Below, piece after piece: positions 847 through 61,228 of a stretch of DNA of 64,000 nucleotides; position 1 is the stretch's first letter, and each line of letters begins with the position of its first letter. Where the stretch lies: assembly GCF_037392515.1 (NCBI RefSeq), contig NC_090280.1:61083504-61147503 (forward strand). Direction: 5' to 3'. This stretch comes from Haliotis asinina (Eukaryota; Mollusca; Gastropoda; Lepetellida; Haliotidae). The position numbers and the translations under genes were made by a program. A model generated the notes under the pieces. That model was not told the origin of the DNA and searched no databases. It saw only the letters and a program-made list of their open reading frames with translations.

Positions 847-3800
847 ATGAGTGAAAACAGTCCTGTAGCTCAATCGTCCAACTCCAATGCGGAAAAAAAG
901 AATGGTTGGGTTGGACCGCCGACCAAGGAGTGGCTTGAAAACAGGTTGTCAAAGAGGTTATGTTACCTGCTTCGGTATGGTGCTCTCAAAGAGGGACTTC
1001 ATGCTGATGATCAAGGTACGTTGAAAACGAATACATGTTAGCCTGTTGTTTATTTCCGGGAGGTGATGATGACTTTTATGGAAATACAATGATTCATAAC
1101 AATGTGAATGACCCCAACTAAAAATCATATACAAAGTAAGTGATACCCCTACCATTTTGTGACCCGTGAAGGTCTGGTGTAGAACAGGCCTTCAGCAACC
1201 CATGCTTGTCATAAAAAGCGAATATGCTTATCATAAGAGGCAACTAATGAGATCGGATGGTCAGGCTCTCTGACTTGGTTGACACATGTCATCAGTTCCC
1301 AGTTGCCCAGATCGATGCTCATGCTGTTGATCACTGGATTGTCTGGTCCAGACATGATTATTTACAGACTGCCACCATATAGCTGGAATATTGCTGAGTG
1401 TGGCCTAAAACTCAGCTCACTAATTTGATCACCTCCCATTTTGTGTAAATCCATCCTCATACTGTTGATCACTGGATTGTCAGGTCCAGGTTTGAATATT
1501 TACAGACTGCCCTCATATAGCTGGAATATTGCGTGGGCTGTGTTAAGCAACCAAATAAACAGTGTGCCCATCATTGACTTGTCTGGTCCACACTTGGTGT
1601 GTTTTTAAACAAACAAAAAGCAAACCTATACGACAATAAGGATACTGATGCCAGTCATTGCGGGACTGCATATACATAGATGTTCATGATATCAATCACT
1701 GGATTGTATGGCCAAGTAATCATATGATGATATCTCTTTGTGTGGTGCTAAACAACAAAGGAAAATATGCTGAACAGCAAAAGAAATGCAGTTTTCATCA
1801 AATGAAATCTCATAAAAGTAAGTGTTCATGTTTATGTCTTCCATATGTCTTGAAAACTTGACAAAAAACCAGAGTTGCTAATCTTTGTGCTGCTCAGTAT
1901 AGTACAACTTATGGTGTACTCATTTCAGGGTATGTCAACATAGAGGAGCTGTGTACAGCAAACCTCTTAAGCGACCACACCCAAGAGGAGGTGCTTGAGG
2001 AAATAAAAACCTCAACATCTTGGAGGAAAACAAAACGCTTCCAGTGGAAGGAAGAACATGGAAGGATCTATGTGAGAGCACAGTATGCTCGACGTTTAGA
2101 GAAGGTAGATCATCTATCTGACACTTGACATTATTTAATTCCTCAGCTAAGAACTTAGTATCACTGCTTTGAAGGCTTTGAGAGGATGCAAGTCACATGG
2201 ATCAACAATGTCCACAAGGAGCATGTCTTTGAGAAAAGACATCTGGAGATTGGCTTTAAAAGTGGCCGAGTTGTTTATAGTCTTAATTTTCTTGGCAGAT
2301 CATTCCAGAGTCATGAAATTGCTCAGTTGAAGGATCATTCTCCATAGGTGGCGGTCCTTTACAGTAAACCAATGTAAAACTCTTAGATTTGTAATTCAGG
2401 TATCTTACTAAAATATTCTTTGTAATATATCTACACAAGGAAATGTTATCAATGTCCAACGGACTCTAGCATTTGCTGATTTTGTGATGGTGTCAAAATC
2501 TGTCACTCCTTTTCGAAATGTAATGAAACTAATATCTTTGAAATGATCTTGAATGCAAAAACTTATTACCTGTCTTTGAGTACACCATTGCTGAACTATT
2601 TGAGCAGAGCAGGTTAGGAAGGGGTTGGGTTGAGGGCAATTTTCAAGGAAATATTTACTCCAGCATCTGTCAGTGAGTGAGTGAGTATGACTTTACACTG
2701 ATTTTAGCAATATTCCAGAAATATCACAGCAGAGAACACTGTAAGGGTTTCATACGTTGTGTCATGTTGGAATTGAACCCAGGTCTTTAGTGTGATGAGC
2801 TAACGCTTTAACGTCTAGGGTACACCACTGACCAAGCATCTATGAGAATTTGGGGTAATGCAGATATGCCTACCAATGGACAGAGCATGGAACTACAGAT
2901 TATGGGGTTCACCATGCCCTGTCCCTGACGACGGGTATACACAGCAAGATTGTGTCAGTCATTATCAACATGTGTCAGCAGGGTGATCATGAGCTGTTTT
3001 CTTCTCCAGAGTCCATATCATGAAGACTGCAAGGTGCCAACCCTGTTTGAGAGCTGCATACAAAGTGTCCTTGCAAACATAGAAGACTACGATCTGGATG
3101 ATTTCCCTGATGAATTTGTCATAAGGTGAGAACTTCTGAGTAGTAGTTACACAGCTACTGTTTTGAGTAGTTACACAGTTACCAAACTTGTTATTTTCAT
3201 GATGGTAAACTGAAGTAATTAGTTTCAATGCTGTTGGGTGGATAGAGTGTCTGCACAAGGCTTGGTTGTCAGGGTTTGATTCCCAGTCACGTCATACTAA
3301 ACATTGAAAGGTTTTATTTGGGTTTTTTCCCTGCCAAACACATGGGACAAAGGGGATTATGCAAGACCTTGTCAGCTTGAATGCAGCATGCAGTGTATTA
3401 TTTAGGTATGTGTGTTAAAATTGCATGGTATCTCAGGAGACAAGCACCAGAAAACAGATGCGTCACATTCTTTTTGGTTGCTGTAGTCATTTGCGAACAA
3501 CACTGTGACAAATATACTAAACAAAATAGTTTGGGGTCCTGAATATTTGGGAGACATTTTTATGCAATTGTGTGCTCAAGTTTTCACTGCAAATGTTGAT
3601 CACTATCTATTTTTGCAAATTTATATTACATGTAGAATTACTTGTTCAGTAGGTGTGAAACGGTACACTCTTACCACGGTAAAATATCAGTTTTTGTAGA
3701 TTTGTAAAGGTGTTTTGAGGTATGATTATTGAAAAGAATGTGCATTTTTTTTCTAGCACAATGATCCATCGCCTGAAGCGTCAGAAGAAGCTGAATAACA

Positions 3801-5059
3801 AAGCCCTACAGATCCTGCTGGTTCCCACCTTGGAGCACCTGGACCTGGAGGGGCTCTACCTCACCAACAACATTCTCAAACTGGTGTGGACAAAATGTCC
3901 CCATCTCAAAACACTCAGCCTCAAAAATTGTGGTTATATCATGACTGATAACCTCATGTCTCAGCTAGTCAAGGTACATGAAATATACATAATAAGTTGT
4001 TCACTGGTCACAAGGGGAACATGAGTTGATGTATCCTTGATGATAGTTTATGTTCCCCTCACCCTTCGGGTTTATGGAACATAGAGAAACATTATGAGTA
4101 CATCACTTCATGGGCCCCAAGGAACCAGTGAACAATGTATTTATCTTACTGCAAACCTTAATGTTAATCTTGCATTGTTTGAAGCATGGGTACAAAGGTC
4201 TTAGTAGACACAGCTAGGTTTTGCAGACGACAAGATTCAGAGTTATCTCCCTTTCATCGATTTTGCATCTGCAAAAAACTGATAGTTTTCATACATTACA
4301 TGTGTTTCAATGTTATTCAAGATAAGGAAGTTCTACCATCAAATACAACATGAGCTGGACATTCCCAACAGGGTACACTGAAAATAACAGAAGATCTCTC
4401 AGCCAATCAGAAAATGACATGAGCCTTATGACTCATTTAGTCAAGGTACACACATATATAGATGACCTTTTGTCTCATCTAGTCAAGATACATACATGTA
4501 TAGATGTCCTCAAGCCTCAGCTTGTCAAAGCACATATAGACGGCTTTATGTTTGAGCTCACCAAGATATGAGTCCATCTGTATAAGTTTTTATAGGGTTT
4601 TGATAAGAATGCTCTTTTTCAAATTCCTCAATACACTAAATATTTATAATGGTGAGTACAGAGGTATATTTTAAAGACCTTGTTCTTCACCTGTCTTTTT
4701 TTTTCAATATGTTTCAGAAACTGCCAAACCTGACGTCACTGAATTTGGCCCAGTGTCAGCATTTAACAGACAATACTCTCAAATCGATCAAAAAACACTC
4801 CAAAAACTTACGAAATATTAACATATCTATGGTGAGAAATTTCACAGAGGCATGTGTGTTAGACTTCATAATAAGCCTTTCAAACCTAGAGCAGGTGGAC
4901 ATGTATGATGTGAGGATATCATCGGACGGTCGGCAAACTCTGGCCGAGATTGGCAAACACAGACCTTTGAAAATTGTTCTGCGGGAATTCCACAGTAAAG
5001 AGGCAGCACAGGAAAATCCTTCAGAGATGTTGCCACATTTTGGAAAAGTTTGGTACTGA
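847..5059 (+). CDS. Tpt1/KptA N-lobe-like + leucine-rich repeat protein
   Basis: Five coding exons: 847-1015, 1929-2104, 3010-3125, 3757-3973, 4718-5059. All have GT..AG borders and phases that join without a break, giving 339 aa. Residues about 34-112 resemble the N-terminal lobe of Tpt1/KptA RNA 2'-phosphotransferase (LSKRLCYLLRYG near 34-45, GYVNIEEL near 57-64, RFQWKEEHGRIYVRAQ near 93-108). Tpt1 needs an Arg-His pair after 'LSK..L..LL'; here it is Arg43-Tyr44. The Arg of the 'RAQ' motif (Arg106) is kept, and the C-terminal catalytic lobe is missing. Residues about 170-315 are LRRs of the LxxLxLxxCxxLTD (CC) type, ending in a short polar tail. It may therefore bind RNA or protein rather than act as an enzyme (inference). 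Codon 847 is preferred over the in-frame ATG at 817 because the shared domain does not need the extra ten residues. An AATAAA lies at 5222-5227. Confidence 0.85.
1160..1540 (+). repeat. SINE-like repeat (family A), full copy plus partial copy
   Basis: Lies in intron 1 of the Tpt1-like gene. Position 1160-1425 is a full family-A unit: head 'GAAGGTCTGGTGTAGAACAG', core with 'GATCACTGGATTGTCTGGTC', tail 'TAGCTGGAATATTGCTGAG'. A second, headless copy follows at about 1448-1540. Confidence 0.75.
1766..1901. mobile_element. MITE copy 1 (TA-flanked, ~135 bp)
   Basis: Begins TATGCTGAACAGCAAAAGAAA and ends in the near-complement GCTGCTCAGTATA. It is the same element as at 5778-5903 and 35857-35982. 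The short inverted ends and TA at the borders fit a non-autonomous Tc1/mariner-class element (inference). Confidence 0.6.
2672..2835 (-). repeat. tRNA-derived SINE (family B)
   Basis: On the minus strand it has a tRNA-like head with a B-box-like 'GGGTTCAATTCC' and the tail 'GGAATATTGCTAAAA' followed by CACTCA repeats. The same type is present at 19465, 20985, 52945 and 59455. Intronic. Confidence 0.6.
3225..3455 (+). repeat. tRNA-derived SINE (family C)
   Basis: The head has a B-box-like 'GGGTTTGATTCCC', and the 3' part 'GCATGGTATCTCAG..GCACCA' is shared with the copy at 63205-63410. It lies in intron 3 of the Tpt1-like gene. Confidence 0.55.
4425..4565 (+). repeat. Decayed tandem echoes of exon-4 end and donor
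   Basis: Three degenerate copies of the exon-4 3' end plus splice donor (exon: TCTCAGCTAGTCAAG then GTACAT, ending at 3973) recur in the following intron: ACTCATTTAGTCAAG-GTACAC, TCTCATCTAGTCAAG-ATACAT, CCTCAGCTTGTCAAA-GCACAT. Only the first keeps a GT donor. Confidence 0.6.
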
Positions 5060-16700: not shown

Positions 16701-19700
16701 TCACAGTTGCAACCACCATCTTTGTTGACACTGGCAAGCTCGGTTGTAAAGGCAGCTTAGTTGATTGGTTACTGTGGAGCCAGCAAAGGGAGGTAATAAA
16801 ATTATTGGAGATGCTTCCATTGTGTAAGAGGTATTTATCGGAGCGTATGCCCTGGAGATATTGAGAATTCAGGTCCATATGGCAAACATGTTTTTCATCT
16901 CCAATAGCATTTGGAGAACCTTTTTTAGTTCTGGGTCCTTAGGCCTGCAGCTTTTCAGGGTTAAGGGAAAACACTGCATGATGGTCTTGCTTCATATTGT
17001 TTCAGGTACATGCATTAGATCCACTAGTCTTGAAAAACATGGACCTGTATGCATTCCTTCTTAAGCGAGAAAAGAAATTCAAAGAATTACAAGGGTGAGA
17101 CAACTCATTTTACCATTGAAATTTGTGATCCAACACTTCATTCTGCAACAGAACTACTGTCTCTAGGCATGTAAATAATCATGCCAGAGCCAGCGATTGA
17201 TATTATGAGCATCATTATGCTGTCTACATCATGCAACTGAAATGATGATTAAAGCCATGTTAGAACCTCACTCACTTCGTGGTTGTAAATGGAATGTAAA
17301 TGCAAGAGGCAACTAACACGATCGGGTGGTCAGGCTCACTGACTTGGCTGACACATGTCACCGTATGCCAGTAAGATAGATAGATGCTCAAGCTGTTGAT
17401 CATCAGATTATCTAGTCCAAACTCGAAAATTTACAGTTTGTTGACATATACCTGGAAGATTGCTGTTTTTGGCAGTAAAACACCAAACCACACCACTCTT
17501 CCTTTCACCTATTCAACTCACCAACTCATCCACTCACCCACTCATGTACTCAAAAACTCACCCATTCTACAACTCACCTACACACCTACACACCATCTCA
17601 CCCACTCGTCCGTTCAAGCACCCACCAACTCCCTCACCAATCATCACTCACCAACTCACCCACCTACCCATTTATCCACTTACCAGCTCACCTACTTACA
17701 TTGCCTACTTACTCACAGCAGATGTCAGGAAGGCCTTGTTTTGTGTGTTATATTGAACTTGTCTGTGGTAATAACTATCAGAAATGATCTCATGGAAACA
17801 AATAAGAGAATTCTTGAAAGTACAAGTGTTCCGTTATTCTTTTCCAGGTTTCTACACAAGGATATATTGCACTGTGAGGGAAATTCTTGAAGTACATAAA
17901 GGAACACTCATACTTTCCTGTGTTCCCTTTTTTGTTTCTACAGACATACTTTGACTATATGTTATACCCTCGCTGTTGCATTTTTCGACAGGCTGGCACA
18001 GCAGCTGATGTGCATCTCAGATGGCGCCACTGAACCGTGGGTTGCCATGGGTTACTATTCCCTAATGTGCATCACAAAACCCAAAGAGAGAGCAGCAAGA
18101 GCCGTGTACTTTGCTCAAAAGGTATCCAAGTATTTCTTTACTGTTAGACCTAACAGTGTGATGGCACATACATAATAGGGCCTTGTATGACAAGATTGTT
18201 GCTGATCAGTTTGAAAAGGATACAACAGAGTCCAACCAATCATGTACTCTGAAATTGAAATATGGACATGTTGACAATGTCAATTTATATCAGACTTTAG
18301 ACACTAGTTTTTACATACTCACTGGAAACACTGTTATAAATTATTCATATCAGTTTCTTTATAATGATGTACTCTGTCCTGAGACCAATGAAGATCAGGA
18401 TTAGAATTGATCTTCAGCAACCCATGCTTGTCGTAAGAGGCAATGTAATAGATGGGGTGGACGACTCACTGGCTTGGTTGACTCATGTCATCGCACCCCA
18501 GTTTTGTAGATCAATGCTCATGCTATTGGTCACAGGATTGTCTGGTCCAGACGCTTTGTACCTAGGGAATCAAACCCTGGCCTTGTGAATGGTTTAACCC
18601 CACCACACTTGTTCTGAGAACAAGAGATGTGAGACCATCCAGAGGGTCGTGTTTTGATTTATCATCTGTATTTGCAGAACCTCCTACTCATAGTGTGCGA
18701 TGATGCTGTTGTTCACATTCTAGAGTTTCTGCTGTTGCAGGCATATCAGATAGATCCCAGGTCTATACAGGCTCTCATCCTCAAGGGTACAGCTCTGCTA
18801 GAATTAAAGAAGATCCACGATGCCACACTTCACTTCCTGGAGGCTGTCAGACTTGCACCACATCGATTTGAAGCTTACAATGGTAAATACTGAACATATC
18901 CCACATGCTGCAGAGTATACCATTATCGTATATCACAATGTCACATTGATTGCTTGACTGGCATTTTAGAGGATGCTGTTTGGATTTTTGTTCATTTGTT
19001 CATTGATACAACGTTTTGGGAACTTTTCTGGCCAAATCACCAGTTCTTGTTCTTTATGTTTGTCACATTGATTGTATCAAGTCCTCACATTGCAAGTAAT
19101 TCACAGGAAGACAGTTTTATGGATGTCAGCATTTGTGTTTTAATGAATACAACGTTTTGGAGTAAATACAAACCCTTTCATCTGAAATGTTTTGTTCCTC
19201 ATTATAACGAAGTTGGCATCCATAAAACTCTCTTCCTCAAACCCTGAATGTTGTACAAACTGATGGTTGATAGTGCAAGTGTCTTCATGTCACCATGACA
19301 ACAAAGTCAATAGTTATAGTTCATTTTGATCATGAGCAATATTCTTTCATCAGGATAAACCCATCTGTAAATTCTTTTTAAGATCAGAATGTCACAATTT
19401 GAAAGAGGGTAAAATGTTATTGACGGGCATTTGTTGGTAACCATCAGTCACGTGAGCAGTGGAGGTGATGCAGTAGCCTACTGGTTAAAGCTTTCACTGG
19501 TCGTTCCAAGAACCCAGGTCCGATCCCTCACATGGGTACAATGTGTGAAGCCCATTTCTGGGTGTCCCTCTTCTGTGATATTTGCTGGAATATTGCTAAA
19601 ACCGGCATAAATCCAAGCTCTTGCATCTGTGGCTGCTTAGTAGCAACAGTCATGATAAGGATGTTGTATTTATTGATGCCAGCCTGTGTTTAAGATCTGT

Positions 19701-31770: not shown

Positions 31771-31950
31771 CGTAAAATAATGTTTGTGCTTCGATCGAAA
31801 CAAGAATATCTCTGTGAACATATAAGCATATCAGTTCTAATAATATTTGCATTCTCAGTGTGGCGCATATGCATGTCTTTAACTTACTGTGTTACACAAT
31901 CATGTTGTAGTGCTGGTCTCATGGCCATCTACACGTAATAGAGGATGCAA

Positions 31951-32393
31951 ACAGGACTGTAACACATTAGTCATAGACAGGTCTGTAACACACTAGTCAT
32001 AGACAGGTCTGTAACACATTAGTCATCAATGGGGCTGTAACATATTAGTCACAAACAGGTCTTTAAGGCATTGGTCATAAACAGGTCTGTCACAAATTAG
32101 TCATAGACAGGTCTGTAATACATTAGCCATAAACAGGTCTGTAACACATTAGTAATTAACAGGTCTGTAATACATTAGCCATAAACAGGTCTGTAGCACA
32201 TTAGTGACAAACAGGTCTGTAATACATTAGCCATAAACAGGTCTGTAATACAGTAGCCATAAACAGGTCTGTAATACAGTAACCATAAACAGGTCTGTAA
32301 TACATTAGTAATAAACAGGTCTGTAATACAGTAGCCATAAACAGGTCTGTAACACACTAGTCACAAACAGGGTCGTAACACAACAGAATACTT
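31951..32393. repeat. 26-bp minisatellite, about 17 copies
   Basis: Unit of the form ACAGGTCTGTAATACATTAG + 6 bases, repeated about 17 times with single-base variants; the first and last copies are the most diverged. It gives a spurious minus-strand frame at 32175-32357. Confidence 0.93.
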
Positions 32394-32792: not shown

Positions 32793-33695
32793 TTATACGG
32801 TCCTGTTGGGTGATACACCTAGCCGTCTGGAATCTGCTGCAGATTGCTGACCACAATTCTGATGTTGTACAATGTAGATAATGGCGTAAAATGTGAAACA
32901 GAGCCAAGTGACTGCGACAATAACACAGATCACCACACACACTATACGTCTCACTGGACGTCTTTTAGTCGCAGGCTCAGTTGCTGTCTCGCCATCAGCT
33001 GCTGCTGAAGAACGAAGGGGAAGACGATTTGAATTCCGTTTGGACTGTGTGCCAGAGGTTTTTGATGTTGCTGACGTTACTTCAGCATCGGAACTTTTTT
33101 GCAACTTAGATTTTGCAATTTGCATTTTGTTGTCGATGTTTTTGTATAAATTTTTAACATACACTTGTTGCACCACTGATCGTGGTACAACGTGTCTAAG
33201 TCTGGAGGTGAAAGGTGTTTCAGATACGTTTCTGCGCTCATACGCTAAATCCTTATTAATGTTAAAATAGTGGCTCTCTTTCAGTACCATAGGTGGTCGT
33301 CGAAGTAGTTCCCTCAAGTCATCAAGCCATTTCTCACCTTTGACCACGATGGCAGGGAAATCCCTGTGCAGAATATGGTGACAGTGTTCAGTTTGTAAGT
33401 AAATCACATTTATTCGTTTTCTGTGCAGGGCATTGGCAACAGCGACGTTGTGACCATGTATACATGTTTTACTTTCAGGGTTTGTCCATATTATCAATGA
33501 CCACGTTGACTGCAATATGAAATCATCTCTTTGGTCGAATTCCCAACCTCCGTCTTCACCTTGTTCAGTGTAATCCAAGCATTTGATTCCAGATTTTGAC
33601 AGCCTTGCCTTCACTTTTGACGCCAAAGATATCCCATGGCTGCATTCCTCGTCATATACCATATTAACACTGATTTTCCTGCGTCCTCCTGCCAT
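32793..33695 (-). CDS. TIR/SEFIR-like single-pass membrane protein, copy 1
   Basis: Intronless 300-aa frame. Residues about 7-134 alternate predicted strands and helices in the order of a TIR/SEFIR fold: KISVNMVYD (strand A), ASKVKARLSKSG (helix), KCLDY (strand B), STWSLIIWTN (strand C), INVIYLQ (strand D), AIVVKG (strand E), WLDDLRELL (last helix). A Ser/Thr/Lys-rich linker (about 140-243) follows, then a basic cluster KRRPVRR (244-250), a transmembrane segment (about 251-276) and a 24-residue tail with the sequon NRT (297-299). The positive-inside rule puts the TIR-like part in the cytosol. The Glu of NADase-type TIR domains is not evident after TCIHGHNVAV, so a signalling adaptor is more likely than an enzyme (inference). 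The start is set by homology to copy 2; an upstream in-frame ATG is cut off by TGA. Confidence 0.75.
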   Translation of the reverse strand: MAGGRRKISVNMVYDEECSHGISLASKVKARLSKSGIKCLDYTEQGEDGGWEFDQRDDFILQSTWSLIIWTNPESKTCIHGHNVAVANALHRKRINVIYLQTEHCHHILHRDFPAIVVKGEKWLDDLRELLRRPPMVLKESHYFNINKDLAYERRNVSETPFTSRLRHVVPRSVVQQVYVKNLYKNIDNKMQIAKSKLQKSSDAEVTSATSKTSGTQSKRNSNRLPLRSSAAADGETATEPATKRRPVRRIVCVVICVIVAVTWLCFTFYAIIYIVQHQNCGQQSAADSRRLGVSPNRTV

Positions 33696-34000
33696 GATTG
33701 CAAGGCAGCATCACTGATTCATAAATCGTGTCCAAACACTTTTAGTGCAGCAAATACTATCAGTGCCTCAACAACAGCTCCTCTCCTCCCACTAAACTCG
33801 TTTTACAATTGGTCGGGGACAAGTGATTCATGACAAAAATACACCCTGATAGAGTATCCGGCTTTGTTCTGGTGATATCCCGGTCGGAATGTTTCTACAT
33901 TGTTGGACAGGTTCTACACTGATTCCTCTTACGCAAAAAGTCTGAATTGTTCTGAACTCTCTTTCATGTATGTGTGTGTTCATATCTAACGTTTCAAAAC
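33696..34000 (-). promoter_or_regulatory. Duplicated 5' flank of TIR-like copy 1
   Basis: Matches the 5' flank of copy 2 (39904-40235) in blocks such as ATTCATRAATCG and ACCCTGAT..GGCTTTGTT, up to about 33990. The duplication therefore carried upstream, probably promoter, DNA. No TATA box was assigned. Confidence 0.45.
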
Positions 34001-34004
34001 TTGC

Positions 34005-34945
34005 ACCCAAACTTTTGAAAGCTATTTTCTGAATCTACACGTGTATTCCTCAGGAAGGTTGTATAGTGTTTAACTTTAAAGGGACACAGGGCGAGTAATG
34101 TTTCGCCTCCCTTGAACATGACAGGCAGAGGGACGGGCAGTTGTCTGCTCTGACAGAATTTCTTCAACCTAAACGATGGGATACTAAAAGCGGTGCATGC
34201 CAATCAGATGCCGTTATTTGACAATATCTTCGGTACTTCTTGCATTAAAGTATCCCAGAAGTATGACCCTTTACGGATTTTCTGATGGATGGATGGTATA
34301 GTGACTATTACTTCTATATTTAATCATGCCAGGTAACGATGTTGTGTCAGTTTACTTATAAAATTAAAAACACATGTTTGATTTATTTAAATCCACCAAC
34401 GAAATCAACTCCACTTTGTCATTGCTGGGGAAAAAAAATGAAAATTAACTTAGGTAAATAGGTTTATCATATATTGAGGTCGTTACCGGTGCATTAGAGC
34501 AATCTGATACACTTTGCATCCAGATTGTGTAAATATGCAAAATCAGGTCATTAAGCTAACTACTGCTCAATTATGTTTTTCTTTTTTGGACAGAAAGATC
34601 TCATTTTTGGCAAGAATTATGCTCGCACTATATTAAAGACTAGTCACAACCATATGCCGCCGCTATGAATGCCCCTTCACCTTGGCGTACCGCTAAGTGT
34701 TCCTACGCAAATGCTCGAGTCTCACCGTATAAACTAAAGTACGGTTTGCCTTTTTAGAGTAATTTTAAGAATAGCACTATATGATAAACAGATTATTATC
34801 CTAGAGTGTTTCCGTGTCACTAATATAATATAATTTTTATTCCTAATATGTCATATTAATGATATAGAAACATACGCGGTTAATAACCTCTCTATATACA
34901 GCTGTTCACTTTATGTGTCTCTATGCAATAAGGAAGTTACGTTCG
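34005..34945. other. Intergenic, nothing recognised
   Basis: AT-rich with no feature that I can support. Confidence 0.4.
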
Positions 34946-34949
34946 TACT

Positions 34950-35330
34950 CCTATTTTCTCTTAGGCAACGAAAACAAGTATGCAGTACAGCGATTATCTG
35001 GACTATCCTTTAGTAAGCCATGTTTGGTGGTATAGATCTAGACCTGTTCATTTGTCATCATTCACTTGTTAGTCACTAAATGAATTTGGAATATGTATAA
35101 TTTGTGGTACCACGGCAACAATTACCCGATTTATGTGGTCAGCAATAGCTGGGTAAATATGAGATTTGATGTTTTTTTTCGTGAGAAAATGGGTACATAA
35201 TTGCCTACTGTGATGATCACTTTTTATCAGAACACTGAATTCATCCTCGACGACATCTAATTTGCAGTATTTGCACATAGTAGGTTTGTTACGAAATTTT
35301 CTCTTTCAACACCTTAAATCAGAGTAACTG
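34950..35330 (-). mobile_element. LINE 3'-end remnant
   Basis: The minus-strand frame 35069-35278 begins MCKYCKLDVVEDEFSVLIKS, matching the C-x2-C..(I/V)EDEFHF tail of gastropod non-LTR elements and the copy at 31511. The rest of the reverse transcriptase is not recognisable. Confidence 0.5.
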
Positions 35331-35856
35331 AACGAAACTTAGAGAAAGTAAAATGTAGACTACGAACCGTTTTGCACGTTTTTTATGGCTATCGTGCATG
35401 GAGAGAAGCTTTCATAAGATAGCAAAACAACGCTCAAGTGTGTACACTGGCATATGATACACTTTGCAAACCTTTTCCATTCATCCTGTTTTGACCTACA
35501 GGTGTTTCTCTCGATGTTTCGACCATACGCCCGTTCCATGACCAGCGAACGCTGTAACCATTAGTCTACTACACCACCCATTTCAACTAGGAAGTAGGAG
35601 GCACATTATGCACGATCATGTTGACTCCTTAGATCAGATCAAAGAGTAAATATGTATCACAGTTTCCAATCTCTTGCATGCTATGGTAGATATGGTAGAT
35701 ATAAGTCATAATACCTGGCCAGATGGTAGACGAAAAGATCACAATTCCTCATTCATGCCAGCCTTCACGGTTTGTTAGTCCTTTATCGCAGCACTCTGCA
35801 GTGCGGCAAAAAATCACAGTGACTTGTAGACTAATAACTGGTCCCTGAAATCAGCA

Positions 35857-35982
35857 TATGCTGAACAGAAAAAGTAAGGCAACTGTCGAAAAAATGAAAT
35901 ATCATAAATATATACGCTCATGTTTATGTCTTTTTAAAATAACTTAAAAAAACAGATTTGTGTTTCTTTTGCTGTTCAGTAT
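35857..35982. mobile_element. MITE copy 3 (TA-flanked)
   Basis: Ends TATGCTGAACAGAAAAAG and CTTTTGCTGTTCAGTATA are near-perfect inverted repeats. The centre ..ATGAAATATCATAAA..CTCATGTTTATGTCTT is shared with copies 1 and 2. Confidence 0.65.
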
Positions 35983-35999
35983 ATTTCACAGAAAAAAAA

Positions 36000-38925
36000 A
36001 CAGTTCATAATAAACAATGAAATATAATGAAAAAGATCCTTGAGGCTTTCTAAATGTTCAGAAACTGTGGAAGTCTTAGACTTGTCACATATTCTAGACT
36101 TGCATGGGCTTCCTTTGATATACTTGTTTCGGGGTCTGGACAAAAGACTAAGTGGCTTCTATTTCAGTCAACTGAAAACAAGCCAGATAAGGAGCAACTA
36201 CGTCGTTGAGAAACGATGTCAAGCAGTCGTCAATAGCACAAGTCCCACAGTCCTTAAACAGCGTTATTTTCCTTTCTGCATGGCCACGCGGCAGCGCCTA
36301 AACCCTAAATGAACCAAACATAGATTTCCCCAGCTTCTGATTCTCCCGTCACACCCAGGCACTTTTCAGTTTTTAAGGAATTAGTTGCTTTTATCAAAAT
36401 TACATATATTCGGAGACTTCATGCATTCGTCAAAAATGACACCTAAAGGTTACTGGAAAACCCTTCAAGCGTAATCACTGCCTTTGGCTGTAGGAATCTC
36501 CCACTGAACCAGTTAGTCATAAGAGAGTCTGATTTCTTACTTCGGGACTATCATGATGGTTAGCGTTCGTGTCGGCAATTGTTAAGTTCTCAGTATAATT
36601 GTCATTCTGTATTCCCTATTAGTTCATGTCTTTTAAGATATGACATGCTTTGAAAGGGGGCGTAGCCTGGTGGCTGAAAAAGCCCTCTTCCTCTAGCGAT
36701 AAATGTTTGACATAATTTACTTTTGTAAACAGTCGCGAGGTCAGGCACGTAGCAAGCCATTCTTTGTTTCAGCCCAATAGGCTGCAAACCTTTCTGTCCA
36801 TAGACAGCAGTAAACGTTTCGTGACGATTTTTGGTCTCTTTACTGAAATACTACATGCACAATATGTTGTCTTGCTTCTTGTAATTTGGGACAATGTTGT
36901 ATCATTGTTTTACTATTGTGGAATTTTAATGTCATGAATTATGATTTAATAATAAGATAGTTAACAATTGTCAAACTATATATTTGTTACGAGGGAGAAG
37001 TGCAGAGAGAGAAACAGCCAGGTATATTATTTATTCATTTACCTGTGCAGAGCTTTTCTCCCATTCCTGGCTATACTTCAAAATGCCTTTCAAGAACTTC
37101 AAGGTAAACATCTTCAATCAATCTTTATTCACATATGAAAGTTACAGTACAAGTGCACACAATGTTTAACAACATAGTGGATTTCTCTCCATAACAGCAT
37201 GATGAATGAACAAAGAATATTTTACCCTAATATGCCGTAAGCAATAATTGGCAGCTAGAGGTTTGAAGATTGTGTCCCAAAATAACTGTGAATATCTTTG
37301 TTTCTAATGCTACTATGATGATTACAAATTAGCAGATAACTGCATCAGTTTTCCAGGACATCTACAGTATAGCACACAACAGGATAACACCTTAAGCCAT
37401 AGTCAGCAGAACGAGACTGGGATAAGATTAGTCTTACTTTCTTACTATTGATTAATACCTAAAATCAGTCATCAGTCGAGTGCAAATAAATAGAGAGCAG
37501 TTGTGAAACTAATTCTTTAAAAGTAGTATGCATCCACCCAAACACCCCATCCTACACCCCCTCAGAAATATATATTTATGCAGAACAATATGTAATAACA
37601 ATGTTAATACTTAAATTTCTTTGAAACGATTCTAATGGAACCGAATGCTGCCTAGATTTATCATACACTATAAGTCTGCACGTCACATGAAATGAAAATT
37701 GAATTCGAAACTTATTTCAGTACGTAAATGTACTATTTGTCGAGTGTTCCATGTTTTTACAACTGCAGTTTCTCTGAGAAAGGACTGAGAGATCGGTACA
37801 ATCAAACCACAGTTTAGAACTCTTTCTCAGCTGAAATAACACTTGCATTTGCTTATGACAGGTGCACCGATTGGAAAGATATGTTGACATTCTCTCAAAT
37901 GCTGGTATAATAATTAATTGATAGTGATTCACAAACACATTATGTCATCGAAAATGTATAACTAATTATTATCACCTAAATTTATGTTAAATTCTTTGGG
38001 TGAACACTTTATTTTTTTTCCCAATGGCTCCCACCATGAAAATATCACACACACACAAAGCCGAGATACATGCGGCTTAAGCAATAAAGCTAAATGATGT
38101 ACAGGTAAGAGATCAGTATATTAATATATTAAAAAACATGCATAAATCATTAAGTAGATGATGTATCGATAATACCAGGTACAAATCAATACAGAGTTGA
38201 GAGCCGTCTAAATACTGGCGAGAGAAGACTCCAGTTATCATTAAAACTATTTATTAAATTATATATTTTTACATAATTATGATTTTCCACACAGAATATT
38301 TCTTTTAGACATTTTGTATGTAAAGTTGGATTTGTAAGCATATTTTTAACATATAAGCATATTTTTGTATCTGTGAATGTGTATCTTTGTAGAGTGATGA
38401 TGTGATTTCGAGTACCAAACCAAATCATGACTTTGATAATATCAGTGGATGGCAATAAATATTGTTAAGCCAGATTTGTAGGTTTATCCAAAAGGTTTTT
38501 GTCTCCTCGTATTTCCACATATTTGCAGAAAGAGCACAAACTGCTATCAACCTTTTTACCTTTGACCCATTCCGTTTTTAATCAATAATACCTTGTAGAA
38601 TTCTACACTGAAAGTTTATAAGTTTTGTATCTTGTGATTCCTTTTGCAATTTTTCCAATCAAAGTCGATATCAAGAAATAAAAGCTGCCATTTATGACAA
38701 CTGTTTGGATATGTATTATTGCAAATACGTTTATCATTTTTAAAAAATCCTGCAGTCTTTTGATGCTTTTACTAATTCTAGCTGACAATGGTAAACATTC
38801 AAATTCCTGACACTATCTATCTACACTGACTTTCAGAGGTACGTATATTTACGTACGTATATGCATTTGATAACAGTTATGCCACTTATCTCAATGTGTT
38901 GTTCATCCTCTCAAGTATTCAGACA
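36000..38925. other. Intergenic, nothing firmly recognised
   Basis: A 90-codon frame at 36040-36312 and short minus-strand frames at 38186-38788 show no recognisable domain. Possible old transposon debris. Confidence 0.35.
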
Positions 38926-38931
38926 CACAGT

Positions 38932-39903
38932 TCATGTCACGGTCCCATTTGGGAATACAGCTAACCTCCTGGAATCAGTTGCAGGTTGTTGCCCACAATT
39001 CTGATGTTGTACAATGTAGGGGATAGCGTAACAAATAAAACCGAGCACAAGGGATGCAATTACAAAAAGCACCACACACACTATACATTTAACTGGGCAC
39101 CTTTTCATCGTTGTATCAGTTGGTGTCTCGCCATCTGTTCCTGAAGAAGAACGAATGAGGTGATGATCTGAATTCCGTCTGGACGTCTGTGTGCGAGAAT
39201 TTCCCGATGTTGCCGATGTTACTCCAGTATTGGAACTGTTTTGTGACAGCGACATAGATTTTACACTTTGGAACCCCTTCCGATATAACTTAGTTTGACC
39301 CATTCTTGTTTCGGGTGACACAAAGTTATTTCTCATGATGTTTCTGTACAAATTTCGAGCATACAGTTGCTTCACCGCTGATCGTGGCATAACGTGTTTA
39401 TGTCTGGAGTTGACAACTGGATCAGACATGCATCTAGACTCATTTGCTGAATGTATTTCCTTTGTAATGTTAAGATAGTTGTTCTCTTTCATTACCATAG
39501 GTAATCGAAGCAGTCTTTCCCTCAAGTCATCAAGCCATTTCCCTCCTTTGACCACGATGGTAGGGAAACCCCTGTGTAGAGGATGATGAAAATGTTCTGT
39601 CTGTAAGTAAATCACATTCATAACCCCTCTATACACGGCATTGGAAACAGCGACGTTGTGACCGTATATACATGTTTTACTTTCAGAGTTTGTCCATATT
39701 ATCAATGACCACGTTGACTGTAACATAAAGCCGTCTCTTTGTTCGAATTCCCAACCTCCGTCTTCACCTTGTACAAAGTAATCCAAGCATTTGATTCCAG
39801 ACTTTGACAGCCTTGCCTTCACTTTTAACGCCAGCGATATCCCATGGCTGCAATCCCCGTCATATATCACGTTAACACTGATTTTCTTGGGCCCTCTGCC
39901 CAT
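38932..39903 (-). CDS. TIR/SEFIR-like single-pass membrane protein, copy 2
   Basis: Paralogue of 32793-33695, also intronless; 323 aa from the ATG at 39903 (331 aa from the in-frame ATG at 39927). The shared start MxxGxxKISVN favours 39903. By eye about four-fifths of the N-terminal ~128 residues are identical to copy 1, while the linker differs much more and is longer (inserted segment with NFVSPETRMGQTKLYRKG). Numbered from 39927, the transmembrane segment is about 281-306 (CIVCVVLFVIASLVLGFICY onward). The tail YIVQHQNCGQQPATDSRRLA is nearly the same as in copy 1 and ends with the sequon NGT. Conservation of the fold core, membrane anchor and tail against a diverging linker suggests both copies were kept under selection (inference). 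Confidence 0.75.
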   Translation of the reverse strand: MGRGPKKISVNVIYDGDCSHGISLALKVKARLSKSGIKCLDYFVQGEDGGWEFEQRDGFMLQSTWSLIIWTNSESKTCIYGHNVAVSNAVYRGVMNVIYLQTEHFHHPLHRGFPTIVVKGGKWLDDLRERLLRLPMVMKENNYLNITKEIHSANESRCMSDPVVNSRHKHVMPRSAVKQLYARNLYRNIMRNNFVSPETRMGQTKLYRKGFQSVKSMSLSQNSSNTGVTSATSGNSRTQTSRRNSDHHLIRSSSGTDGETPTDTTMKRCPVKCIVCVVLFVIASLVLGFICYAIPYIVQHQNCGQQPATDSRRLAVFPNGTVT

Positions 39904-40240
39904 TGCATGGCAATGCCACCGATTCATGAATCGTTTTCGAATATTTTCCTTGCACTGACTACTATCTATACTTTAGCAACAGGAACACTGAGTTCAAATG
40001 GTCGAGAACAAATGTCAACAAGAAGTATATAATTTTATGAAAACTTTACATCCTGATACAATAACTGGCTTTTACGTCCTGGTATAATAACTGGCTTTGT
40101 TGTGACATAGGGAATAACACTGGACAGTTCTCATGTCTAAAATTTAAGTTTCTATATTGGTTCAAAGGTTTTGCACTGTTTAATCTTCCATGAAGAAGAT
40201 CAAATATCTTGTTTTGCGTGCACATGTTCATGCCTAACAT
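39904..40240 (-). promoter_or_regulatory. Duplicated 5' flank of TIR-like copy 2
   Basis: Homologous to the copy-1 flank. Copy 2 alone carries a ~30-bp tandem repeat (two versions of CTG(A/G)TA(C/T)AATAACTGGCTTT near 40050-40100). Confidence 0.4.
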
Positions 40241-40689: not shown

Positions 40690-42000
40690 AAAGCGCAAAT
40701 TCTGAGGTACAAAAGATGTTCCAGCTCTTTCAGTCTTGGTGATTGGTACTGTGTAGCGGTGACCAGATGGCAGAAGCTTCTGCTCTTGATTTCAAATATG
40801 TGTTGAGTCATTAATGATTTTTTTCAGACGTTGAAAACACTTGCCGCTCAAATATAAGTAAAAGATTATTGAAAGTGACCCCGACTATTTTACTAGCTGT
40901 ATTTACAATTTTGTTAAGTTTTACTTTGTTTTTGATCGAGAGAGATTCAAACCAGCACTGAGAAGTAAAAAGGAGTATATTTTGAAATAAAAGTGGCATA
41001 AAACAACATCATAAGAGATTGGGAAACATTAAAAGATCGCAGTTTGTGCATTAGATGGAGGCGTTGCTGACATTTACTATATATGGCATCAGTGTTGGTA
41101 TTCCACGTTAACCTGTTATCAATAAATAGTCCAAGGTACTTGTATTCAGTGACTATCTAAAATGGTTCGCCATTAATAAACAAATGTGATACGATTGGGG
41201 AGTTAATTCTGAAGTTAATACACAGTTCTTTTGTCTTTTTCACGTTTAAAATCAAATGATTCTCTGTACACCATGACATGAAATAATTTACATTATCTCT
41301 GTATTGTCGCTCTGAGATGCAATCATACATCTGACCACAAATGGCTGCATTATCAGGAAACTTCACATTTATACAGTTATTGTCTACGCTAGTGCAGTCA
41401 TTGGTGTGCAGAGTGAACAGTACTGGCGACATAACACAACCATGCGGCACTCCTGGATTGATAACCTTCGTGGCAGATACACTGCCGTTAACTTTCACAC
41501 ACTGAAATCTTCCATGGAGAAAATATCCGATCCATCTAATCAACTACTCCCATAGTTTGCAGCTTCCTTACCATGGTGTGCTGTTGTATCGTGTTGAAGG
41601 CTGAAGTGAAGCCAACGAATAGTATTCTAATGTAGGACTTCGGGGTCTCCAGATGCTTATGTACGTTATAGAGAAGAGAGAGTTTGGAGTCAACAACCCC
41701 AGGTTTGGATCTGTATGCGAACTGTATAAAGTTAAGTAGATGGTTTACTTCTGTCTTCAGAAACTTCAAAATGATGCGCTCGAGACACTTCATAGCAATG
41801 GAGGTTAATGACGATACCTATTTGGTTCTTGTGGCTTGCTTTCTTGGGAATGGGTATGATCTTTGACGTTGTGTGTTGGTGTGCACGTTTCACGTTTCAT
41901 TTTTACCCGAGTTGCAATGGTGATATAACAAAATTTCAGGATAAAAGTGGGAGGAACACCCCTGCATCCTCTCCTGGATCTGCCTATGAACAACCATGGT
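40690..42000 (-). mobile_element. Decayed non-LTR retrotransposon (LINE) reverse transcriptase
   Basis: On the minus strand from 42000 down: SKIIPIPKKA; MKCLERIILKFLKTEV..FAYRSKPGVVD (41536-41793); GVPHGCVMSPVLFTLHTNDC, FPDNAAI (normal FADD motif changed) and WCTENHLILNVKKTKEL (41157-41543); then SIKNKVKLNKIVNTASKIVG (40811-40999) and LLPSGHRYTVP. This is the order of a CR1/L2/Rex-type reverse transcriptase C-terminal half. Frame breaks and the altered catalytic motif show that it is dead. Confidence 0.75.
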
Positions 42001-51182: not shown

Positions 51183-52541
51183 CTAGTTTTGCTGTGTCTG
51201 CCTCATAGCTTGTCGTGGAGGCCAATTTTGTTCCCTACGCACATAAACAACCTCCTCACCTTTAACATGTTTAAATCCTTCTAACCCCGTCTGCCTCATA
51301 GTTTGTCGTGGAGGCCAATTATGTTCCTTACGCACATAAACAACCTTTTCACCTTTAAATCCTTCTAACCCTGTCTGTCTCATAGCTTGTGGTTGAGTCC
51401 AGTTTTGTTCCTTACGCACATAAACAACCTCCTCACCTTTAAATCCGTCTAACCCTGTCTGCCTCATAGCTTGTGGTTGAGTCCAATTTTGTTCCTTGCG
51501 CACATGAACAACCTCGTCCCCACTAACTCCTTCTAGCACTGTCTGCCTCATAGCCTGTGGCTGAGTCCCATTTTGTTCATCACGCAGATAAACAACCTGC
51601 TCCCCTCTAAGCCCTATTCCCCTTTCTGCCCTCTCCTGTACAGGAACACTCAGCACCTGAATATGAGGCATATGCTGCTGCATTCTGCCTGACATATCTG
51701 GTGGATTATCCTGTGGCATATCCAAAGGCATATCTGGTGGATTATCCTGTAGCATATCCAAAGGCATATCTGGTGGATTATCCTGTGGCACATCCAGAGG
51801 TATATCTGGTGGATTATCCTGTGGCACATCCAGAGGCATATCCTGTTGCATACCTGGTGGATTATCCTGTGGTAGATCCAAAGGCATATCCTGTTGCATT
51901 CCTGGTGGATTATCCTGTAGCACATCCAGAGGCATATCCTGTTGCACACCTGGTGGATTATCCTGTGGCAACTCTTGCTGCATACCCCCTGATGTATCTG
52001 GAGAATTATCCTGTAGCATATCCTCCTGCATACCCCCTGGCATACCCGGAGGGTTATCCTGGTGCATATTCTGTTGCATATTGCCTGGCATACCTGGTGG
52101 ACGATCTTGCTGCTTGCCAGCTGGTATACCTGGAGAATTATCGTGCGGTATATCTTGCTGCATATCCCCTGGCGTACCTGGAGGGTTAACCTGGTGCATA
52201 TCTTGTTCCATAGTGCCTGGCATACCTGGTGGATGATCTTGCTGCTTGCCAGCTGGTATACCTGGAGAATTATCCTGCGGTATATCCTGCTGCATACCCC
52301 CTGGTGTACCTGGAGGGTTATCTTGGTGCATATTCTGTTGCATATTGCCTGGCATACCTGGTAGATGATCTTGCTGCATGCTAGATGGCATACCTGGTGG
52401 GTTATCATGGTGCATTGCCTGTTGCATATTGGCTGGCATACCTGGTGGGGTATCCTGGTACATATCTGCTTGCATATCCTGTGCAATACCCGAACTGGTC
52501 TGTGACAGTATCCTACCTTGATGTGTTATGATGCTTCTCAC
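51183..52541 (-). CDS. Pro/Gln/Met-rich repeat protein frame (452 codons)
   Basis: Long minus-strand frame. Residues about 1-300 are variants of PPGMPGNMQQNMHQDN-like units. Residues about 315-452 are five ~28-residue units of the form GEEVVYVRKEQNWTQPQAMR followed by QTGLEGFK. Unit lengths are multiples of three and stop-free, so other frames are also open (for example 51650-52486). This weakens the length evidence, although two unrelated repeat arrays share one frame. No signal peptide or known domain was seen. Three C-terminal units contain AAAG-GTGAGG or a near match, a good donor in phase 1, which would suit the Piwi-like exon beginning at 50000; a link to that gene is speculative. It may be a structural or secreted repeat protein, an exon, or a non-coding coding-like minisatellite. 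Confidence 0.4.
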   Translation of the reverse strand: MRSIITHQGRILSQTSSGIAQDMQADMYQDTPPGMPANMQQAMHHDNPPGMPSSMQQDHLPGMPGNMQQNMHQDNPPGTPGGMQQDIPQDNSPGIPAGKQQDHPPGMPGTMEQDMHQVNPPGTPGDMQQDIPHDNSPGIPAGKQQDRPPGMPGNMQQNMHQDNPPGMPGGMQEDMLQDNSPDTSGGMQQELPQDNPPGVQQDMPLDVLQDNPPGMQQDMPLDLPQDNPPGMQQDMPLDVPQDNPPDIPLDVPQDNPPDMPLDMLQDNPPDMPLDMPQDNPPDMSGRMQQHMPHIQVLSVPVQERAERGIGLRGEQVVYLRDEQNGTQPQAMRQTVLEGVSGDEVVHVRKEQNWTQPQAMRQTGLDGFKGEEVVYVRKEQNWTQPQAMRQTGLEGFKGEKVVYVRKEHNWPPRQTMRQTGLEGFKHVKGEEVVYVRREQNWPPRQAMRQTQQN

Positions 52542-59933: not shown

Positions 59934-61228
59934 CGAGGGGAAGTCAATAAGTTCATAGAAGTGGGTGCTGATATATCCTTGGTGATGTTGTCATTGGTGT
60001 CATTATTGAGTTGATTCATCTGTGACTCTGTATACTGATACCCAACCTTCCTCGAGCATTTACTTGAGAGTTAGAGCCTTTAAAAGACGATTACCCTGCA
60101 CAAATCATGGAAACCTCCAAAACTGAGTTTCGTGCAGTTATCAAGTTTCTCACTAAAGAAGGTGTGAATGCAACCGAAATCCACAAACGCATGATCAATG
60201 TGTATGGCGAGGAAGCCCCTCAATATTCCACTGTGGCAAAATGGTCAGTTGAGTTTAAGCGAGGTCGCAGCTCCTTGGAAGATGACCCACGGTCAGGAAG
60301 ACCTTCTGAAGCCATTACAGAAGATACAATTGCCCGGATCCAACGCTTAATTATGTCCGATCGGAGAATAAAGGTGGACGAGATAGCTTCAGAGTGTGGC
60401 ATTTCACATGGAAGTGTTTGCACAGTGATCCATGAACACCTGCACATGTCCAAGGTATCCGCAAGATGGGTCCCTCGTAACCTAAATGCACATGATCGTC
60501 ACCAGAGAGTTGAATCCAGTCGTGAGCTGTTGGACATCTACAACGCTGATCCTGATAACTTTCATGCTCGTCTGGTTACTGGGGATGAAACCTGGATTCA
60601 TCACTGGGATCCCGAAACCAAACAAGAATCCATGCAGTGGAAGCACAAGCATTCTCCTGCACCCAAGAAGTTCAAAACACAACCTTCTGCTGGCAAGATC
60701 ATGGCAACCGTTTTCTGGGATTCAAAGGGTGTGATTCTCATAGACTATAAACCACCTAAAACTACGATCACAGGGGCTTACTATGCTGACTTGTTGAAAA
60801 GATTGAGAGCGGCCATCAAAGAGAAGAGGCGTGGGAAGTTGACAGCTGGAGTCATGCTTCTCCACGACAATGCACCAGTCCACAAGAGCCGTGTTGCACA
60901 AGCTTCTCTTCAACAATGTGGCTTCGAACAACTAAACCATCCCCCATACAGTCCAGATCTGGCCTCCAGCGACTACTATCTGTTTCGCAATTTGAAATCT
61001 CACTTGCGTGGAACAAGATTTGCCAATGATGATGACCTCAAGGCAACAACAGAGGCGTGGCTGAGGGACCAATCTGAAGACTTCTATTTCAAGGGCATAG
61101 ACAGTCTCAAAGACAAATGGGCAAAATGCATCGAGGTTCAGGGAGACTATATTGAAAAATAAAACCAATATCACAACCATTGTGTTCTGTTTTATATCGA
61201 GTTCTATGAACATATTGACTTCCCCTCG
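59934..61228 (+). mobile_element. Complete mariner transposon (1,295 bp)
   Basis: 27-bp terminal inverted repeats: left CGAGGGGAAGTCAATAAGTT.. and right complement CGAGGGGAAGTCAATATGTT.., one mismatch. TA sits just outside each end (59932-59933 and 61229-61230), the expected target duplication. Length and single transposase frame are canonical for the mariner family. High terminal identity and an intact frame indicate recent arrival. Confidence 0.95.
60107..61162 (+). CDS. Mariner-family transposase (DD34D), 351 aa
   Basis: Cut-and-paste transposase that acts in the nucleus on its own inverted repeats. The N-terminal part (about 1-115) holds the paired helix-turn-helix DNA-binding region (FRAVIKFLTKEG; SGRPSEAITEDT; CGISHGSVCTVIHEHL). 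The linker motif WVPRNL (121-126) stands for the usual WVPHEL. The catalytic triad is Asp160 (TGDETWIHHWDPETK), Asp254 (LLHDNAPVHKS) and Asp289 (YSPDLASSDYYLF), with exactly 34 residues between the last two. No stop or frame break is seen, and length is normal for the family (about 345-355 aa). The stop codon overlaps an AATAAA poly(A) signal. Catalytic residues are all present; the variant linker might lower activity (inference). Confidence 0.97.
   Translation: METSKTEFRAVIKFLTKEGVNATEIHKRMINVYGEEAPQYSTVAKWSVEFKRGRSSLEDDPRSGRPSEAITEDTIARIQRLIMSDRRIKVDEIASECGISHGSVCTVIHEHLHMSKVSARWVPRNLNAHDRHQRVESSRELLDIYNADPDNFHARLVTGDETWIHHWDPETKQESMQWKHKHSPAPKKFKTQPSAGKIMATVFWDSKGVILIDYKPPKTTITGAYYADLLKRLRAAIKEKRRGKLTAGVMLLHDNAPVHKSRVAQASLQQCGFEQLNHPPYSPDLASSDYYLFRNLKSHLRGTRFANDDDLKATTEAWLRDQSEDFYFKGIDSLKDKWAKCIEVQGDYIEK

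Follow-up and report, generated by a model that had tools for sequence, protein, structure and literature searches.

What do two similar reading frames encode that lie about 5 kb apart on the reverse strand of a 64,000-nucleotide stretch of Haliotis asinina DNA (NCBI RefSeq assembly GCF_037392515.1, contig NC_090280.1, positions 61,083,504 to 61,147,503; hereafter the window)? An original prediction, made from the DNA letters alone, had proposed a pair of intronless, tail-anchored membrane proteins with a TIR/SEFIR-like core, possibly a new family of immune adaptors. We find that the N-terminal ∼145 residues are very probably a strongly diverged TIR domain. To the fuller reading, taken jointly, that the pair are catalytically dead, tail-anchored TIR proteins serving as scaffold or decoy, we give about an even chance.

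Two paralogous frames and the selection acting on them

Copy A occupies 32793..33695 (−; 300 aa, stop codon included in the coordinates). Copy B runs through 38932..39927 (−; 331 aa), or through 38932..39903 (323 aa) if translation begins at the ATG at 39903, which is the sole start with a counterpart in copy A; read by eye, the copy A frame matching the upstream ATG of copy B runs into a stop. The two frames are separated by 5236 bp, and their proteins share 66% identity. Their stop-free extents, 305 and 346 codons, exceed chance: when the letters of the window were shuffled 30 times as mononucleotides, the longest frame without a stop reached 170 codons, with a mean of 137. “Intronless” holds for the coding frames, which are single-exon, but not necessarily for the 5′ untranslated region, where there may be an intron.

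Similarity between the copies continues for ∼300 bp upstream of the frames (39904..40240 beside copy B, −, resembling about 33696–33990 beside copy A; 58–70% identity of ungapped columns per 100-column block) and for some tens of bp past the coding part downstream; outside these shared flanks identity is 42–50%, the level of a forced alignment. Since the flanks are similar on both sides, the duplicated unit would be the gene plus its near flank, and a single local duplication is the best explanation for the pair. Position 40240, originally proposed as the end of the feature, lies approximately at the start of the flanking similarity and is no coding boundary.

We estimated the ratio of nonsynonymous to synonymous substitution rates (dN/dS) between the copies by the Nei–Gojobori method over 299 aligned codons, with bootstrap 95% intervals. 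For the whole protein, dS is 0.41, dN 0.20, and dN/dS 0.48 (0.35–0.65). The domain (residues 1–150; 33246..33695 in copy A and 39454..39903 in copy B, both −) has 75% identity and dN/dS 0.42 (0.25–0.71), the Ser/Thr-rich linker that follows it (copy A residues 151–245, 32961..33245, −) 49% and 0.97 (0.59–1.76), the membrane segment 57% and 0.30 (0.11–0.77), and the tail, which has just 24 codons, 79% and 0.11 (0.02–0.40). Purifying selection acts on the domain and the tail, and the pair is unlike pseudogenes; the fast-evolving linker and conserved tail of the original prediction are both borne out. Gene conversion was considered but is not supported: third-position identity is uneven (0.60–0.96 per 25 codons), but its best 50-codon window was reached in 1072 of 5000 shuffles, which is not significant.

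Kinship of the N-terminal domain

The kinship with TIR domains was reached stepwise: the genome that holds the window (G000, 1.14 Gb) also encodes distant relatives, and these connect the pair with ordinary TIR domains. A six-frame search of that genome gave 19 matches. Three of them are the copies themselves (copy A once, copy B split into two pieces), and the other 16 are weak. Two of the latter have E below 0.01, L012 (2.2e-5) and L013 (0.0015). The weaker matches, namely L014, L015, and L017 (0.17–0.22), L016 (0.19), L018 (0.36), L020 (0.73), L022 (0.80), L023 (0.89), L026 (2.2), and L027 (5.2), are not significant when taken one by one, yet all align in register with the N-terminal domain; the four matches left over were discarded. 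In reverse searches with L012 and L013 as queries, copy A came back at 1.1e-4 and 0.003, and copy B at 0.009 and 6e-4, respectively. L012 also matched L022 (1.7e-19), L020 (1.7e-6), and L027 (4.6e-6), and the last two score above the cut-off for Pfam TIR_2; as judged from these searches, L012 bridges copy A to L020 and L027, both of them ordinary TIR proteins. The remaining relatives also match one another: L023 retrieves L016 (4e-21) and L018 (3e-21), and L014 retrieves the same two (7e-10 and 8e-10). Pfam TIR_2 matches are sub-threshold in L012 (E 0.029), L014 (0.0027), and L023 (0.01), and L013, L016, and L022 have none.

Profile comparison among sets drawn from this one genome (the window pair, eight relatives, 27 ordinary TIR domains, and eight SEFIR domains) repeats the two-step connection. 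The pair matches the profile of the eight relatives with probability 99 (E 5.5e-18), and that profile matches the 27 ordinary TIR domains with probability 96.8 (E 2e-10), whereas reversed controls reach no more than 1.2. In a tree of 47 domains, the pair and the relatives form one group beside the ordinary TIR domains (support 86/64); the pair adjoins L013 there (92/77), a placement that we flag as long branches meeting.

Several results weigh against this assignment. Neither copy has a direct match to any Pfam family, even with E allowed up to 1, nor does copy A match any Protein Data Bank (PDB) sequence at that limit; the pair alone matches the TIR profile with a probability of only 21; the genome search yielded just the two relatives with E below 0.01; L014 as query returned the window copies at only 0.05 and 0.1, and L023 did not recover them at E up to 1. 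The 86/64 tree support is modest, and the tree has long branches. Two AlphaFold2 models of the window sequences, built from a shallow two-sequence alignment, have mean predicted local distance difference test scores (pLDDT) of 44 and 34, with predicted template modeling scores (pTM) of 0.40 and 0.22, and are unusable; Foldseek with the better of these low-confidence models (pLDDT 44) gave 66 matches, none with E ≤0.001 and no TIR among the best 50 of the 66, a search that weighs neither for nor against TIR.

Scans of prokaryotic and viral sequences, both sensitive to close relatives only, offered no other source. A candidate for capture from a prokaryote, a 43-residue stretch at 37% identity at locus L084, was put down to chance, the sole frame there of at least 80 codons being of low complexity and unlike the query; no close viral relatives of the window proteins were found.

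The alignment with the 27 ordinary TIR domains also bears on catalysis. The glutamate critical to NADase activity sits between strands C and D (E75 in the available text of PMC7075850). At this position 26 of the 27 have glutamate and one has lysine, whereas both copies have glycine (G81 in copy A), with the preceding S-x-x-C retained; the absence of a NADase glutamate had been noted from the letters, and the alignment agrees. Glycine here makes catalysis of the SARM1 kind unlikely. L013 and L014 retain glutamate, and of the other six relatives in the set of eight, four have glutamine and two valine; L020 and L027 also have glutamine. Loss of the glutamate is therefore not peculiar to the pair. 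In the BB loop, the R-D of the motif R-D-x-x-(P/G)-G is changed to E-Q and V-Q in the two copies, and only nearby glycines remain.

Membrane layout, proposed role, and alternatives

Membrane segments were scored by hydropathy only, as a Kyte–Doolittle (KD) mean of at least 1.6 over 19 residues, with no topology program. By this measure, each copy has one hydrophobic segment, best at residues 251–269 in copy A (KD 2.90; within residues 246–276, 32868..32960, −) and 273–291 in copy B (KD 3.14; within residues 266–298, 39010..39108, −), and the whole-protein scan found no further one at that threshold. Basic residues directly precede the segment, and ∼25 residues follow it (copy A residues 277–300, 32796..32867, −; copy B residues 299–323, 38935..39009, −). 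This tail carries the predicted motif QHQNCGQQ(S/P)A(A/T)DSRRL in both copies, and close to its end a sequon (N297-R-T in A, N319-G-T in B). The predicted order of domain, basic cluster, single C-terminal membrane segment, and short tail is thus what the scan displays. Such an arrangement is most likely that of a tail-anchored protein whose N-terminus is cytosolic, an orientation that follows the well-established positive-inside rule; the strong hydrophobicity and the sequon would suit the secretory pathway more than mitochondria.

The pair belongs to a set wider than, and different from, the family first proposed: besides the two close copies, the genome yielded ten distant relatives, and five of these have a C-terminal multi-span part. 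Single frames counted from the first Met run to 307 codons in L012, 516 in L013, 245 in L014, 510 in L016, 496 in L018, 210 in L022, 550 in L023, and 549 in L026; that Met lies a few to ∼20 residues ahead of the first strand, except in L012, whose N-terminus is extended. Past the domain, L013 has seven hydrophobic segments, L018 six, L016 five, and L023 and L026 four each (L016 and L018 have one more within the domain); at the same threshold none was found in the frames seen of L012, L014, and L022. With multi-span relatives as well as a putatively tail-anchored pair, a diverged TIR domain placed first, followed by varied membrane modules, is a repeated design in this genome. We tentatively extend this, at somewhat less than an even chance, to a mollusc signaling family with alternative C-terminal membrane modules (tail anchor, or multi-span as in L013 and the C5 cluster), in which the pair would be the tail-anchored, NADase-dead TIR adaptor, a counterpart of MAVS in layout.

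The multi-span proteins, of ∼500–550 residues, lie at G000:C5 65.50–65.52 Mb (L016, L018, L023, and L026) and G000:C1 14.305 Mb (L013). Pfam gives at most a sub-threshold TIR_2 match in L013, L016, and L023. The five multi-span proteins may be even more unusual than the pair. L014, L015, and L017 (G000:C10, 25.18, 25.47, and 25.34 Mb) are three near-identical TIR-like frames within 0.3 Mb, reflecting either recent duplication or assembly redundancy. Also in this genome, 16 matches to the molluscan hemocyanin family lie in two groups on C2, and one unit has the abalone entry 3j32 as its best PDB match; a gastropod is the likely source.

As a mechanism, we propose that the domain would lie in the cytosol while the inserted tail holds the protein at a membrane; that, with the glutamate and the BB-loop R-D lost, it would work through TIR–TIR contact instead of catalysis; and that the pair might thereby gather, place, or sequester TIR proteins of the Toll pathway at that membrane, in the role either of a decoy or of a scaffold adaptor, which sequence does not distinguish. 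Possible partners are plentiful: at least 150 TIR_2 matches were scored in the genome, ∼80 of the 150 in open frames of at least 600 codons by an eye count, both being lower bounds because only the best candidates were scored. Loss of the BB-loop motif counts against the proposal in that it could weaken TIR–TIR contact.

Known TIR proteins offer partial parallels. Invertebrate TIR proteins without a receptor ectodomain have been proposed as adaptors or regulators (available text of PMC6321704, PMC6836662, and PMC9334734); for Aplysia, 17 TIR-only proteins have been reported (PMC9334734), and ecTIR-DC proteins are known from invertebrates (PMC6321704 and PMC6836662). These resemble the pair in having TIR without a receptor ectodomain, but their TIR domains, as described there, are recognizable, whereas the pair is invisible to Pfam and has a C-terminal anchor. 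HyTRR-1 and HyTRR-2 of Hydra are TIR membrane proteins with short extracellular domains and no leucine-rich repeats (LRRs), according to the available text of PMC1896004. They and the pair have in common a membrane-bound TIR domain, no LRR, and little outside the cell. Their domain order is receptor-like, with TIR last, whereas in the pair the TIR-like domain leads and the anchor follows at the C-terminal end. Toll-like receptors place the LRR part N-terminally, followed by the membrane helix and the cytoplasmic TIR domain (PMC7075850, available text); the pair likewise joins a TIR domain to a single membrane segment, but it has no LRR part, the order is reversed, and there is no recognizable BB-loop motif. 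No LRR ectodomain precedes the membrane segment in these frames, in which the TIR-like domain begins ≤10 residues from the start codon and Pfam finds no match, although there may be an upstream exon. SARM1 and other TIR NADases share the domain but have glutamate where the pair has glycine. MAVS has an N-terminal CARD, a long linker, and a C-terminal mitochondrial anchor; the likeness to such adaptors is in layout only (signaling domain first, then linker, then anchor), CARD is not TIR, and we claim no kinship. Our literature search, which covered few subscription papers, found no animal protein with an N-terminal, glutamate-less TIR domain and a C-terminal tail anchor.

If the architecture is real, it would be a tail anchor or a multi-span module, and not an ectodomain receptor, that ties TIR signaling to membranes, and the pair would let one ask whether a TIR domain that has lost the NADase glutamate serves as scaffold or decoy. 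Domain libraries miss these proteins, and so would domain-based counts of mollusc TIR proteins.

The alternative that survives best, though we hold it to be improbable, is that the pair forms the signaling half of a two-part receptor, working with a separate sensing membrane protein, as proposed for Hydra TRR, and not as a general adaptor (a bipartite arrangement discussed in the available text of PMC6321704 and PMC1896004). It would suit the single membrane segment, the putatively cytosolic TIR-like domain, and an outer tail as constrained (dN/dS 0.11) as if it touched a partner; however, that tail has just ∼25 residues, and the TIR-first, tail-last order reverses that of Toll-like receptors. 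Slightly less probable again is a TIR-like membrane protein whose role is not in immunity but, for instance, in development or organelle biology. The domain is the sole tie to immunity, and the other features recognized in a scan of ten frames of the window are a mariner transposase, pieces of reverse transcriptase, and weak exons of LRR-like and TPR-like type; yet most characterized animal TIR proteins serve immune or stress signaling, and the fast linker would suit an immune gene, although it proves nothing.

We assign a low probability to the copies being recent and non-functional, whether retrocopies or decaying duplicates, with frames that are still unbroken. Single-exon coding frames and a pairwise dN/dS of 0.48 that is not low would fit such an origin; but the 95% interval excludes 1 and the tail stands at 0.11, neither frame has broken despite a dS of 0.41, flanks shared on both sides speak against retrocopying of one copy from the other, and long single frames are common among the TIR matches of this genome. 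Weakest is a SEFIR-type protein of the interleukin-17 receptor/Act1 line: although the TIR and SEFIR folds are related and AlphaFold2 left the fold undecided, Pfam shows no SEFIR match even with E allowed up to 1, SEFIR profile probabilities (0.75 for the pair, 0.53 for the relatives, and 1.05 for both together) are no higher than those of reversed controls (0.2–1.2, up to 1.16), and SEFIR domains stand on a separate branch of the tree (support 100/99). Of the TIR/SEFIR-like core, the TIR half is thus retained, by way of intermediates (profiles, the L012 bridge, and the tree), and the SEFIR half is dropped.

Other features of the window

Close to the pair, a 26-bp tandem array of ∼16.7 copies (31949–32382) lies ∼400 bp downstream of the copy A stop, and a broken retroelement remnant sits just upstream of copy B, with reverse transcriptase in two adjoining pieces in different frames (41160–41817, −; RVT_1 E 4.1e-6 and 3.3e-7). 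Two stretches, 3719–5056 (+) and 18633–18890 (+), are likely exons of two proteins, one LRR-like and the other TPR-like, with Pfam matches below the cut-off. A repetitive frame of 452 codons at 51186–52541 (−), with Gly-Met-Pro and Gln-Gln-Asp repeats, has no Pfam match; its DNA is tandemly repeated, and the opposite strand too has long open frames. An unbroken 351-codon mariner-type transposase frame lies at 60107–61162 (+; Pfam Transposase_1, E 1.3e-25).

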